This document shows, piece by piece, positions 3,041-43,747 of a DNA stretch of 64,000 nucleotides. This DNA is from Aeromicrobium erythreum (GTDB lineage: Bacteria; Actinomycetota; Actinomycetes; Propionibacteriales; Nocardioidaceae): contig NZ_CP011502.1 in NCBI RefSeq assembly GCF_001509405.1, forward strand, positions 868,001-932,000. The letters run 5' to 3'. The translations under genes and the position numbers were made by a program. Within the stretch, counting starts at the first letter, position 1. Each line of letters begins with the position of its first letter. The notes under the pieces were generated by a model, which did no database searches, had not been told where the DNA came from, and saw only the letters and a list, made by a program, of their open reading frames with translations.

Positions 3041-3487
3041 CTACTTCCTTCGGCCTTCCGCGCTACGGCGGTGTGTGAGCCGCTGCAGCAGGGTGACAAC
3101 GATCAGGATCACGCCGGCGATCGTTACGCCGATCGCGAGAACGGTGCCGAAGGCCTCCTCCCTCTCGTCGCGATACAAGTCGCTCACGATCGAGGAGTCG
3201 GCGGTCAGAAGGAGCGCGAAAGCGAAGCCCCAGTAGATGAGAGTGAGCCCGATGAAGAGCGAAAGGCGGTTCCAGAACCGGCTCTTGCCGTGACTCGTGA
3301 CCATGTACAGCCGGACTGCTTCGTCGATCTGATCGCGCATCCGCTGCGCGGCAATCGAGTCAGTGGGAAGCTCCTTGAGGGTCTTCACCTCTTCGCGGAT
3401 CAAGCTGAGTTGTCTTCGAGAGGAGGAGCCGATCGCTACCAAGGCAGGGAGGCCGAAGGTCACCAGTGCCACGAGGATCTGAGTCAC
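3041..3487 (-). CDS. Hypothetical three-helix membrane protein
   Basis: This 148-residue protein is not recognised. An N-terminal helix (ILVALVTFGLPALVAIG) is followed by a charged, probably coiled-coil segment (QLSLIREEVKTLKEL to DEAVRLYMV). Two more helices follow (LSLFIGLTLIYWGFAFALLL and VLAIGVTIAGVILIVVTLL), then a basic tail RRSAEGRRK. It starts with GTG behind an AGGG ribosome-binding site within GAAGTAGGGTGC. The same 12-base leader precedes the downstream gene at 2977, so both share an expression signal. Lower G+C than the core supports acquisition with the neighbouring unknown gene. Confidence 0.68.
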   Translation of the reverse strand: MTQILVALVTFGLPALVAIGSSSRRQLSLIREEVKTLKELPTDSIAAQRMRDQIDEAVRLYMVTSHGKSRFWNRLSLFIGLTLIYWGFAFALLLTADSSIVSDLYRDEREEAFGTVLAIGVTIAGVILIVVTLLQRLTHRRSAEGRRK

Positions 3488-34849: not shown

Positions 34850-35367
34850 CGTCGGACCCGTCCGGCGCCGCGGCCGCTGGGGCGGGCCGGGTCGAGCGGG
34901 CCGGCCTGGGGGCAGCGGAGGCCGTCGCGCCCGGGGTCGCCGTGCCCGAGATCGTCGTGTCCGGTGCTGTCGTGCTGGGCGTCGGGGTCGACCTGGTGCA
35001 CGTGCCGTCGTTCGAGCAGCAGCTGGAGCTGGCGGGGTCGCGGTTCGCGGGCGTGTTCACGCCGGGGGAGCGGCGCGACGTCGCCGACCGGGCGGCCGGT
35101 CACGGCGGCGGCTCGGGGCGCCACCTGGCCGTGCGCTGGGCGGCGAAGGAGGCGCTGGTGAAGGCGTGGTCGGCGTCGCTCTTCGGTGAGCCGCCGGTGA
35201 TGGGTGACGAGGCGCTGCGCCAGGTGGAGGTGGTGTGCGACGCGTGGGGCCGCCCCCGCCTGCGCCTCCTCGGCGCCGTCGCCACCCACCTCCCCGACGT
35301 CGAGACCCACCTCAGCCTCGCCCACGACGCGGACCACGCCCTCGCCTACGTCCTCCTCACCCACTAG
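34846..35367 (+). CDS. acpS: Holo-[acyl-carrier-protein] synthase
   Basis: The 173-residue protein transfers 4'-phosphopantetheine from CoA to the ACP serine. The core GVGVDLVHVPSFEQQL (Mg-binding Asp) and the WAAKEALVKAWS signature are intact. It ends HLSLAHDADHALAYVLLTH, the usual final strand. About 45 residues precede the core, Ala/Gly/Val-rich and not conserved. If translation begins at the GTG overlapping the FAS stop (GTGA), expression is coupled to FAS. Mycobacteria likewise place acpS directly after fas. Its obvious substrate is the FAS-I ACP domain. Confidence 0.93.
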   Translation: MTSDPSGAAAAGAGRVERAGLGAAEAVAPGVAVPEIVVSGAVVLGVGVDLVHVPSFEQQLELAGSRFAGVFTPGERRDVADRAAGHGGGSGRHLAVRWAAKEALVKAWSASLFGEPPVMGDEALRQVEVVCDAWGRPRLRLLGAVATHLPDVETHLSLAHDADHALAYVLLTH

Positions 35368-35387
35368 CCCCCTCCCCCTCCCTGCGG

Positions 35388-35467
35388 TGCGCGTTTACGT
35401 GGGGCCCAACGTAAACGCGCAGAACTGGCGCATGTTTGCGTGGGGCGGAGCCGGTTTGCTTGGGGGA
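35388..35467. repeat. Left palindrome-tipped arm of the nuclease-gene module
   Basis: A 34-bp palindrome with one mismatch (35388-35421, half-site TGCGCGTTTACGTGGGG) is followed inward by a 40-bp inner arm (35428-35467) containing two degenerate half-sites. The inner arm matches the reverse complement of 36547-36586 at 35 of 40 positions. It stops one base before the stop codon of the enclosed gene. Confidence 0.85.
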
Positions 35468-35468
35468 G

Positions 35469-36455
35469 TCAGGCGACCGGAAGGTACAGACGCCGGGAGC
35501 GAGCGCGCGCGGCCTCGATGCGGGCGACGGTGGACGCCTGGTTCGACCAGTGCAGATCCACCCAGCCCCACCGGGAGACCCCGCGCCACGTGTCACGAAC
35601 CTCGTCCTCACGGAGCTTCTCCTCGACGATCCCCAGGCCGGGGTCCTGCAGGTGCGGGTTCAGGCGTCCGTACTTGATGAGTCCGTCGAACTCGCCGACG
35701 TGGCGATCTGCGGTCCACTCGAAGTCGACGCGTCCGACCCTTCGGCCGTGACCATCGACGATGATGACCTGGAGGTCGGGCAGGTCTGTCCCATGGCGCC
35801 AGAACATCACGAACGAGCGAGCCTCTCCCGCGCTCTCCAGGCGTCCGTCGGCGAGCTGGACGGTCTGGCGCACCGTCTCTGCCCCTGCCCATGACCGGAA
35901 GCGTGCGACCTGCTCGCCGAGCTCGGCCTCGGTCGTCCCGCGAGATCGAAGCGCCGAGCTCAGCGCGACGACGCCCTGCTCCACGCCGGTGAACGCAGCG
36001 ATCTGCAGCGCTGCGATCGATGGGAGGACGGTGGGCACGCCGGCGGCGATGGTGACGTCGTCCGCGCGGAGGTCCGGTTCGTGCCAGACGACCCCCGCTA
36101 TGTGACGCCCTGACCTCCCGTCGGTGCGGGCGAGGTGGATGAGTGAGAGGTCGGTGCCCCAGAGGTCGAGACCGAGCAATGCCGCTGCGGACTGGTGGGT
36201 CGCAACGGCACCGTCGTCAGCGCGCTCGAGCACCGAGCGGGTGAGGATCGCGTGCTTCTGTACGGCGTCGGCATGCTCCCACAAGCCCCGTGGCACGTAC
36301 GTACCGTGGCGCGGCCGTGCGAGCACACCCTCGCGGGTCAGCGAGCAGATGCGCCGTTGGCTGAGTCCCAGCTCGAGCAGATGACGCGTCAGCAGGTAGC
36401 CGCCGTGATGATGGGCGAGTGCGGCGAGCTCGTCGTGAGTCATCCTCCCAACCAA
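35469..36455 (-). CDS. AbiEi-like N-terminus with DUF559/Vsr-like nuclease domain
   Basis: The 328-residue protein begins with a winged-helix segment like the AbiEi antitoxin N-terminus (GGYLLTRHLLELGLSQRRICSL, then LARPRHGTYVPRG). The middle resembles the AbiEi domain (LTRSVLERADDGAVATHQSAA, HIAGVVWHEPDL). The C-terminus has a PD-(D/E)XK/DUF559-like pattern: GRVDFEW, GEFDG (about residue 252), KYGR, then KLREDEVRDTWRG and a final hydrophobic strand. I start at TTG 36455, 2 bases after GGAGAAGG; ATG at 36443 is an alternative but has GGGAGG directly abutting it. No toxin gene is adjacent. Both ends of the gene are bounded by palindrome-tipped inverted arms, so it may be the cargo or the enzyme of a small mobile unit. 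A DNA-cleaving role is inference. Confidence 0.78.
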   Translation of the reverse strand: MVGRMTHDELAALAHHHGGYLLTRHLLELGLSQRRICSLTREGVLARPRHGTYVPRGLWEHADAVQKHAILTRSVLERADDGAVATHQSAAALLGLDLWGTDLSLIHLARTDGRSGRHIAGVVWHEPDLRADDVTIAAGVPTVLPSIAALQIAAFTGVEQGVVALSSALRSRGTTEAELGEQVARFRSWAGAETVRQTVQLADGRLESAGEARSFVMFWRHGTDLPDLQVIIVDGHGRRVGRVDFEWTADRHVGEFDGLIKYGRLNPHLQDPGLGIVEEKLREDEVRDTWRGVSRWGWVDLHWSNQASTVARIEAARARSRRLYLPVA

Positions 36456-36546
36456 GACCTTCTCCAGCTGGAGGAGGAGGCCACGCCGACGCCCTGTGGA
36501 CGAGCTGATCGTCTCCGGTGGGTGCGCGGCGTCTTTGTGGACCAAC

Positions 36547-36630
36547 ACCCCCACGTAAACCGGCTCCGCCCCACGCAAGAATGCGCCTCACGTGCGCGTT
36601 TACGTGGGGCCCCACGTAAACGCGCACGTG
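36547..36630. repeat. Right palindrome-tipped arm of the nuclease-gene module
   Basis: The inner arm (36547-36586) is the inverted counterpart of 35428-35467. It is followed outward by a perfect 42-bp palindrome (36589-36630, centre CCCC between 36609 and 36610) with the same half-site ACGTAAACGCGCA as the left tip. The outer end lies 10 bp from the tetR stop. Confidence 0.88.
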
Positions 36631-36640
36631 CGGGGAGGGG

Positions 36641-37273
36641 TCAGCGGGGGTCGGGCTCGGAGGCGAGGAGGTAGGAGGCGAGGAGGCGCTTGAGCTCGAT
36701 GACGGCCTCGGCGTGGCTCTGGCCGTCGCGGACGGAGAAGTTCAGCATCGAGTAGGTCACGTGCACGAGCACCTCGGCCATGATCTGGCGACGTTCGCGC
36801 GGGGTGCCCGGGGTGAGGGGGGCGAGGAAGCGGGCGACGGCGGCGGCCAGCTCGCGCTCGGTCACGGCGGCGGTCGCGCGGGTCGCGGGGGTCGACTGCA
36901 CGGCCAGCCACACGGCGCGCCGCGACGGGTCGTCGGACCACAGGCCCGCCATGTGGTCGATCATCCGGTCGAGGAAGCGCAGCCAGTCCAGCGACGGGAT
37001 CATCTCCGAGAAGCGGGTGAGCTCCTCGTGCACGGCGACGGCGTCCTGGCGGTCGAGCTCGCAGACGATCACGTACTTGTTCGCGAAGTACTGGTAGAGC
37101 GTGCCCGTCGGCAGCCCCGCGCGCTGCGAGACCTCCTCGCACGTGAACGACTCGAACCCGACGTCGAGCAGCAGGTCGCGCGCCGTGCGCAGCAGCAGCT
37201 CGAACTTGGCCCGACTGCGCTCCTGCGTGGGGCGACGTCGGGGCTCGAGGATCTCGGCGGTCACGCGGCCCAC
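36641..37273 (-). CDS. TetR-family regulator
   Basis: The 210-residue protein has the TetR helix-turn-helix RSRAKFELLLRTARDLLLDVGFESFTCEEVSQRAGLPTGTLYQYF near residues 18-62. Helical ligand domain motifs include LDRMIDHMAGLW and IMAEVLVHVTYSML. Two GTG starts are possible (37273 and 37264). It ends 10 bp from the right arm of the palindrome module. A GTGACC-N8-GGTCAC palindrome lies 40 bp upstream (37313-37332). The target is unknown; neighbours are the APH-like kinase/SDR genes and, beyond the module, FAS-I. Confidence 0.9.
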   Translation of the reverse strand: MGRVTAEILEPRRRPTQERSRAKFELLLRTARDLLLDVGFESFTCEEVSQRAGLPTGTLYQYFANKYVIVCELDRQDAVAVHEELTRFSEMIPSLDWLRFLDRMIDHMAGLWSDDPSRRAVWLAVQSTPATRATAAVTERELAAAVARFLAPLTPGTPRERRQIMAEVLVHVTYSMLNFSVRDGQSHAEAVIELKRLLASYLLASEPDPR

Positions 37274-43537: not shown

Positions 43538-43598
43538 CCGACCCTCACCTCGGCCGGCTCGTCCTCGGCGGGCCGGCCGAGGTGCGTCGTGGGGCGGG

Positions 43599-43747
43599 AG
43601 ATTCCCAGGTGGACCTGGGAATCTTCGCTAGGCGCGAGAATCTCTGGCCAGGCACGGGAATCTCAGCCAGGCACGGAAAGGTACCCGTGCTTCCCTGAGA
43701 TTCCCGTGCTCGGTGGAGATTCCCAGGTCGACCTGGGAATCTCCACC
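43599..43747. repeat. Gene-free inverted palindrome cluster
   Basis: A 26-bp palindrome (43599-43624, arms AGATTCCCAGGT) and a perfect 36-bp palindrome (43712-43747) with the same core form the two ends. Between them a perfect 15-bp inverted repeat (43652-43666 with 43695-43709) and a GCACGG/CCGTGC stem sit at the centre. The design, palindromic tips and inward half-sites, parallels the arms around the nuclease gene at 35-36 kb, with unrelated sequence. It lies between converging genes, 10 bp from the pepN stop. Confidence 0.8.

Follow-up and report, generated by a model that had tools for sequence, protein, structure and literature searches.

The described systems closest to the locus reported here are the REPIN-RAYT systems, in which a single-copy, mainly vertically inherited enzyme gene is flanked by its cognate repetitive extragenic palindromic (REP) repeats, many palindromes, often doublets, lie between genes, and several distinct enzymes, each single-copy, can occupy one genome, as outlined in reports on these systems (PMC3116915, PMC3733652, PMC6006769). 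In the TIRYT/TIRtron arrangement, long inverted repeats at the termini enclose the gene and make up small repeat families, as summarised in one of these reports (PMC3733652). Here we analyse a 64,000-nucleotide stretch of the Aeromicrobium erythreum genome (NZ_CP011502.1, positions 868,001 to 932,000; hereafter the window), and in particular the block at window positions 35388–36630, where a gene encoding an AbiEi-like region joined to a predicted nuclease domain lies between palindrome-tipped inverted arms. To our knowledge, the dedicated REP enzymes known so far are Y1 transposases.

We consider it fairly likely that one REP-like repeat family has this single-copy nuclease as its dedicated partner. 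The gene lies between inverted arms, units of the same kind occur as solo copies genome-wide, and protein lineage and palindrome are closely paired among related species. By analogy with REPIN-RAYT systems, the nuclease is probably the propagator of its own REP family, in which an unrelated enzyme takes the part of the RAYT; we infer that the protein binds, cuts and mobilises its palindrome.

Inverted arms and their dispersed palindromes

The arms that frame the gene agree over 79 of 96 bp (35374–35469 versus 36545–36640), and each comprises, from outside to inside, an outer palindrome, a linker with a half-site, and a half-palindrome. In the A. erythreum genome (3.63 Mb; G000), the 13-base half-site, with at most one mismatch, has 76 matches, versus none for the pattern read backwards, and the 24-base palindrome, with at most two mismatches, has 51. 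Among the 49 genomes of Aeromicrobium (Nocardioidaceae; hereafter the genus) that were compared, the palindrome also occurs in G026 (39 copies) and G039 (19 copies), G025 has two look-alikes with two mismatches each, and whole-genome counts gave none in the other 45. These absences, and those below, concern the named palindromes rather than all REPs, because GC-rich coding sequence overwhelmed our attempt to find palindrome clusters de novo. The smallest palindrome clusters were in G012, in which no homologue of the gene was found, in a sample of about 14% of its genome.

The features of the block, its neighbouring genes and one further repeat unit are as follows (window coordinates and strand; entries with no named model, match or family were read from the sequence itself):

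34978–35367, plus strand: acpS, holo-ACP synthase type, left neighbour (PF01648, E 1.8e-14; start tentative)
35388–35421, no strand: left outer palindrome, 34 bp with one mismatched pair, a member of the genome-wide repeat family
35433–35445, plus strand: left-arm linker half-site TGTTTGCGTGGGG, similar to the linker of the dispersed copies
35453–35466, plus strand: inner half-palindrome that closes the left arm
35469–36443, minus strand: gene for the AbiEi-like DNA-binding region and predicted Vsr/I-Bth0305I-like nuclease domain, 324 aa (AbiEi_4, fold matches)
36548–36561, minus strand: inner half-palindrome that closes the right arm
36569–36580, minus strand: right-arm linker half-site, ends approximate
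36589–36630, no strand: right outer palindrome, perfect over 42 bp
36641–37273, minus strand: tetR, right neighbour (TetR_N and TetR_C_22)
43598–43743, no strand: solo unit (G000:C1:911598–911743) of a second repeat family (GAGATTCCCAGGT..) whose cognate gene is the second homologue, G000:C1:2003281

A preliminary description of the block had recognised the palindrome-tipped arms, with both outer palindromes as listed, and the inward half-sites, all of which we confirm, with half-sites on both sides. Its 40-bp arms agreeing at 35 positions are real, but the best-matching pair of that length has 36 of 40 positions in agreement, and the arms extend further. It is also correct that acpS and tetR converge on the block; the nuclease gene is the only gene between the acpS end (35367) and the tetR end (36641). 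The gene boundaries need revision. Specifically, the start given at 36455 probably lies 12 bp too far upstream, and the ATG at 36443 is better, in agreement with the starts of homologues; the left arm, said to end 1 bp before the stop, has its last G-run stopping 2 bp before the stop triplet (35469–35471). With at most one mismatch, CGTTTACGTNGGG has six matches in the window versus 0.16 expected, five of them within the nuclease block.

Away from the gene, we examined 22 dispersed arrays of the palindrome in G000 (14 doublets at 61-bp spacing, four triples, two quadruples and two singles; at most four mismatches, no indels); a 23rd fetched region held none. By eye, the linkers of arrays with at least three palindromes all point in the same direction. 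The outer palindromes of the family are loopless, and GTAG or CTAC lies within 12 bp of only one of 50 palindrome copies. Many arrays lie close behind a stop triplet, as judged by eye with the frame not checked, and a crude automatic gene call places 10 of the 22 between convergent, nine between codirectional and three between divergent genes.

An origin of the block by insertion of the gene mid-way into a pre-existing three-palindrome array was considered and rejected, since the linkers of dispersed arrays with at least three palindromes are unidirectional (by eye) and other homologues are also framed by inverted arms.

Pairing of protein lineage and palindrome

Homologues were identified by protein search in 42 of the 49 genus genomes; the other seven have none at E 0.001, and some of these are incomplete. 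We took 72 homologue loci, eight of which had no match at E 1e-3 in a local search, and scored 64 for arms. All 48 loci of the main group (the window gene, the second homologue, L037–L065 and L189–L205) lie between inverted palindromic arms, with scores of at least 31.5. By comparison, 800 random 1-kb segments gave a median of 15.5, a 99th percentile of 30.0 and a maximum of 35.5, which 46 of the 48 loci exceed, while a null of mismatched pairs (n = 400) had its 95% point at 28.0 and peaked at 63.0, the latter because sister species have arms and flanks in common. In most main-group loci, some 60–120 bp separate the end of the upstream arm from the start. One main-group locus, L204 (G002:C1:3223991–3224916), has its matches split over two pieces in different open frames, with well-matched arms (score 63).

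Outside the main group, L206 (28% identity) does not pass, with an arm score of 15.5, and a distant third G000 homologue, L003 (G000:C1:651570; profile E 1.4e-44), has no clear arms (22.0; 23 when rescored). The profile search gave five matches in the G000 genome, including L003. Rescoring of the distant clade over slightly longer segments put 14 of its 23 loci above 35.5; this arm evidence is weaker, as it consists partly of long GC-rich alignments.

The border palindromes of main-group homologues vary by clade, and arm similarity tracks protein identity (Spearman 0.53 over 1,081 pairs from 47 loci; none of 999 permutations as high), with the caveat that pairs from the same locus have some flanking sequence in common. 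Furthermore, the four palindromes that were counted genome-wide are restricted, nearly without exception, to genomes with the matching gene lineage. In particular, the second G000 homologue (C1:2003281; 34% identical) is framed by GAGATTCCCAGGTCGACCTGGGAATCTC, which, with at most three mismatches, has 28 copies in G000, 29 in G026, 23 in G039 and 21 in G018, and none in the other 45 genus genomes; these four are the genomes with the second homologue at the C1:2003281-type position. G018 has this second family and its gene but, by protein search, no window-type main-group gene, and it has no window-type palindrome. A distant-clade homologue in G042, L222, has TCGCGAGAGACTTTGTTACC on both sides in inverted orientation, and the TCGCGAGAGACTTTGTTACC site has 41 matches in G042, one in G031 and none in the 47 other genomes.

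Short patterns searched in four 400-kb samples gave a mixed picture. The G000 palindrome was present in G000 only (three matches), a G003 pattern in G003 only (two), and the second-family half-site eight times in G000 versus one, none and one elsewhere; GGTTTACCACGG was present four times in G021 and also twice in G003, GACGCCCCACGG was uninformative (20, 14, 6 and 6), a G039 pattern matched G000 once, and a G010 pattern matched G012 once. A few patterns had no match because their own genomes were unsampled. Whole-genome counts were used instead; BLAST of flanks of about 200 bp against the same samples was set aside as too noisy, since off-diagonal counts were numerous.

The solo unit of the second family in the window (43598–43743) contains two GAGATTCCCAGGT palindromes and an inner inverted repeat. 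The neighbours of the second homologue at C1:2003281 resemble, by eye, uvrC and uvrA.

If another enzyme spread the repeats to gene ends, the window gene could be a mere passenger in a repeat-rich gap, and the frequent location of units near gene ends would fit such a coincidence. The inverted framing of 48 of 48 main-group homologues, set against the random null, speaks against it, as does the joint occurrence of palindrome and gene lineage, including two families in one genome. We disfavour this explanation and regard it as very improbable.

Beyond the genus, a profile search of 396 genomes, sampled evenly across the phylum, detected members in 206 of them and in 140 of 245 genera. We scored 29 other-genus loci, which are the best matches of top-ranked genomes rather than a random draw: relative to 812 mismatched pairs, 23 score above the 99th percentile, 26 above the 95th and 19 above the highest value. 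The half-site of the G423 arms is likewise dispersed, with 14 matches in one 400-kb sample versus 1, 1, 2 and 1 in four other-genome samples. In the spread sample from L343 of G423, at 3341 and 4556, inverted half-site copies lie 1.2 kb apart, which is the spacing of another gene unit. It is an even bet, in our judgement, whether there is a phylum-wide class of REP-propagating systems in Actinomycetota, in which a single-copy AbiEi/Vsr-like PD-(D/E)XK nuclease, unrelated to RAYTs, would cut its own loopless palindromes and spread them between genes as short units; by co-evolving with the palindrome it would bring about their rapid replacement from species to species, and one genome could harbour several such pairs.

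Position of the gene and turnover of the repeats

The order acpS–gene–tetR occurs in 11 genus genomes, ten with both flanks and G047 with one; in G038, where the contig ends, tetR has a fragment of the gene next to it. If a match on one flank is accepted as enough, which is lenient, the main-group genes of the genus fall at 15 positions, a count limited by contig ends and shared domains. In G021, G019, G022 and G042, the acpS–tetR junction is free of the gene and holds a solo unit with a match to the arms around that genome's own nuclease elsewhere; for G021 and G019, the top score of the junction unit is against the arms of a sister species, slightly above its own. Only these four junctions were used, as coding sequence of tetR and acpS intrudes on the junction-to-arm matching, and the other 13 of 17 scored junctions showed no such arm match (own-genome scores at most 26). 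G009, whose nuclease (80%) is close to those of G019 and G022, has a short junction with no unit.

The preliminary description had proposed a compact mobile unit. This interpretation is partly supported, and none of the three findings named as refuting it was made: the palindrome extends far beyond the block, the block is not fixed at one place in the genus, the junction elsewhere lacking the gene or the gene lying at other positions, and the homologues have palindromic borders that differ in sequence by clade. What does not hold is the picture of a self-contained element, as the ends belong to a dispersed REP-like family and gene movement looks rare, the same junction being occupied in 11 species; RAYT genes, too, usually keep their place.

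Long residence at one junction would also suit a host function of the repeats and protein, such as nucleoid organisation, termination at convergent genes, recombination control or defence, with the nuclease fold secondary. The arrays close behind stop triplets (by eye, with no frame check), the 10 of 22 in convergent contexts (crude call) and the PADLOC AbiEi models that match the N-terminal part are in keeping with this, whereas the variation of the palindrome between related species and the seven genus genomes with no homologue at E 0.001, some incomplete, are not; we judge a host function to be quite improbable as the main explanation.

The system turns over between species. In G039, tetR is 98% identical to that of the window and the nuclease only 63%, and the arms carry CACCCTTTGGGTTGGGCCCAACCCAAAGGGTG. 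The window and G039 palindromes have the common core TTTnnGTGGGGCCCCACnnAAA save for one position, and their other differences are paired changes; hybrid palindromes are present in G000 arrays. Among 12 G000 repeat sites, nine were resolved in G039, six with the window type and three with G039's own type, so that the repeats at some orthologous sites switched type along with the enzyme. The same 12 sites gave nine resolved in G018, none with a window-type unit: five are short segments (29–64 bp between matched flanks), two are longer with no unit, and two hold a third family. The latter two, L320 and L314 (orthologous to the L016 and L019 sites), have the palindromic family ATTCCACCG...CGGTGGAAT in place of the window-type unit. 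In L017, near G000:C1:3223900, a unit GGGGTGGGGCCCCACCCC resembling the G039 type lies just upstream of the first window-type palindrome; its presence beside window-type palindromes suggests that an ancestor carried the two types together. The divergence between filled and empty orthologous sites is too great for a target duplication to be discerned.

Some observations run the other way. The junction of G031 is an exception to the junction matches above, as it holds one palindrome of the G030 type, which is not the type of its own known gene. The type switch in G039 is incomplete, as 19 window-type palindromes are kept there though its own nuclease has other arms. Among the G026 sites listed, with the gene locus left out, 18 of 19 are common to G000 on both flanks and the remaining one on a single 47-bp flank; palindrome numbers vary between these two genomes at some shared sites. 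These sites show no fresh jump between G000 and G026, the two closest genomes, which counts against recent activity.

Site-by-site replacement could also reflect a homing-type drive, in which the nuclease cuts family palindromes and ectopic gene conversion homogenises or replaces them, the original dispersal being due to something else. In favour of such a drive are the best match of the second fold search, a homing endonuclease catalytic domain, the three of nine resolved sites that are of another type in G039, the hybrid palindromes, and the differences in array length at shared sites. The G018 sites, none of nine with a window-type unit and five reduced to 29–64 bp, indicate that whole units are gained or lost too, and genes that are related, and whose arms are related, are found at different positions; we consider a drive of this kind unlikely, while giving it more weight than a host function.

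The encoded protein and comparison with known systems

The N-terminal region (residues 1–199) is of the AbiEi type (AbiEi_4), and PADLOC AbiEi models match this part. Fold matching predicts a Vsr/I-Bth0305I-like nuclease fold, with a Vsr-like catalytic domain, for the C-terminal part. Residues E207, D240, E251 and D253 are invariant among the aligned homologues and presumably resemble the EDxHD residues. Domain searches found no Y1/HUH transposase domain in the protein, and PF01797 (Y1_Tnp) has no match in the G000 genome, while the same model matches five of 14 control genomes. A Vsr-type domain, that of MTES_1575, is described in other, giant proteins (PMC3710099).

AbiEi and Rv2827c are reported to bind 23-bp inverted repeats upstream of their own genes (PMC7319586), and the upstream arm of most main-group loci lies shortly ahead of the start, so that an ordinary type IV antitoxin that autoregulates through promoter inverted repeats comes into question. 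At the window locus, however, the neighbours are acpS and tetR and no DUF1814 nucleotidyltransferase toxin lies beside the gene, a matching arm is also present behind the stop, the palindrome is dispersed genome-wide, and a conserved nuclease-like domain is present. The antitoxin reading is disfavoured, and we would assign it only a slight chance.

For the nuclease as partner of its repeats, we propose the following course. AbiEi-type proteins bind inverted repeats according to the account cited (PMC7319586); here the AbiEi-type region would read the palindromic half-sites, and the attached Vsr-like domain would nick or cut DNA there. Host repair might then copy or insert the short palindromic unit elsewhere, displacing older units, and the gene would stay single-copy between inverted copies of its own unit and rarely relocate. 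That the outer palindromes lack a loop fits recognition of double-stranded DNA by a dimer more readily than the way in which RAYTs read single-stranded hairpins. Such a nuclease-repair process would explain why the gene has arms, why units are dispersed, why palindrome and protein co-vary, why units at orthologous sites change type and why the gene has stayed so long at one junction.

In one open-access library, searched mostly at title and abstract level, we found no description of an AbiEi/Vsr nuclease paired with a REP, and none of a REP system in Actinomycetota. The pairing suggests that a kind of self-spreading repeat system has so far gone unrecognised. If this is true, a second, unrelated class of REP enzymes exists and the same lifestyle (a single-copy enzyme, long vertical persistence and fast-changing cognate repeats) evolved more than once; repeats in Actinomycetota would be accounted for, a set of enzymes would have DNA specificity readable from their own gene borders, and genes named only after the AbiEi region would need re-reading.

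Comparison with described systems places the locus as follows. AbiE/MenAT type IV toxin–antitoxin systems share its AbiEi region and inverted repeats near the gene, but the window gene has no adjacent toxin gene, an extra nuclease-like domain, and repeats on both sides and genome-wide. The C-terminal domain has the predicted fold of I-Bth0305I (EDxHD) and Vsr; I-Bth0305I is encoded within an intron and Vsr accompanies a methylase, whereas the window gene is free-standing, intergenic, AbiEi-fused and palindrome-framed. With TIRYTs and TIRtrons it shares the location between long inverted repeats that form a repeat family, but TIRYTs are tyrosine (HUH) transposases and the window enzyme is not. 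The likeness to REPIN-RAYT systems goes furthest, comprising a single-copy gene flanked by inverted copies of its own repeat, many extragenic palindromes (14 of the 22 arrays being doublets), and several distinct single-copy enzymes in one genome. RAYTs, however, are IS200/IS605-like Y1 HUH transposases whose palindromes have GTAG at their foot, whereas here the enzyme is an AbiEi/Vsr-like fusion in a genome with no Y1_Tnp match, the outer palindromes are loopless, and GTAG or CTAC is nearly absent beside them. The window system is thus like REPIN-RAYT and TIRtron systems in organisation and lifestyle, and we do not file it as a member of either, because its enzyme and its repeat signature differ.
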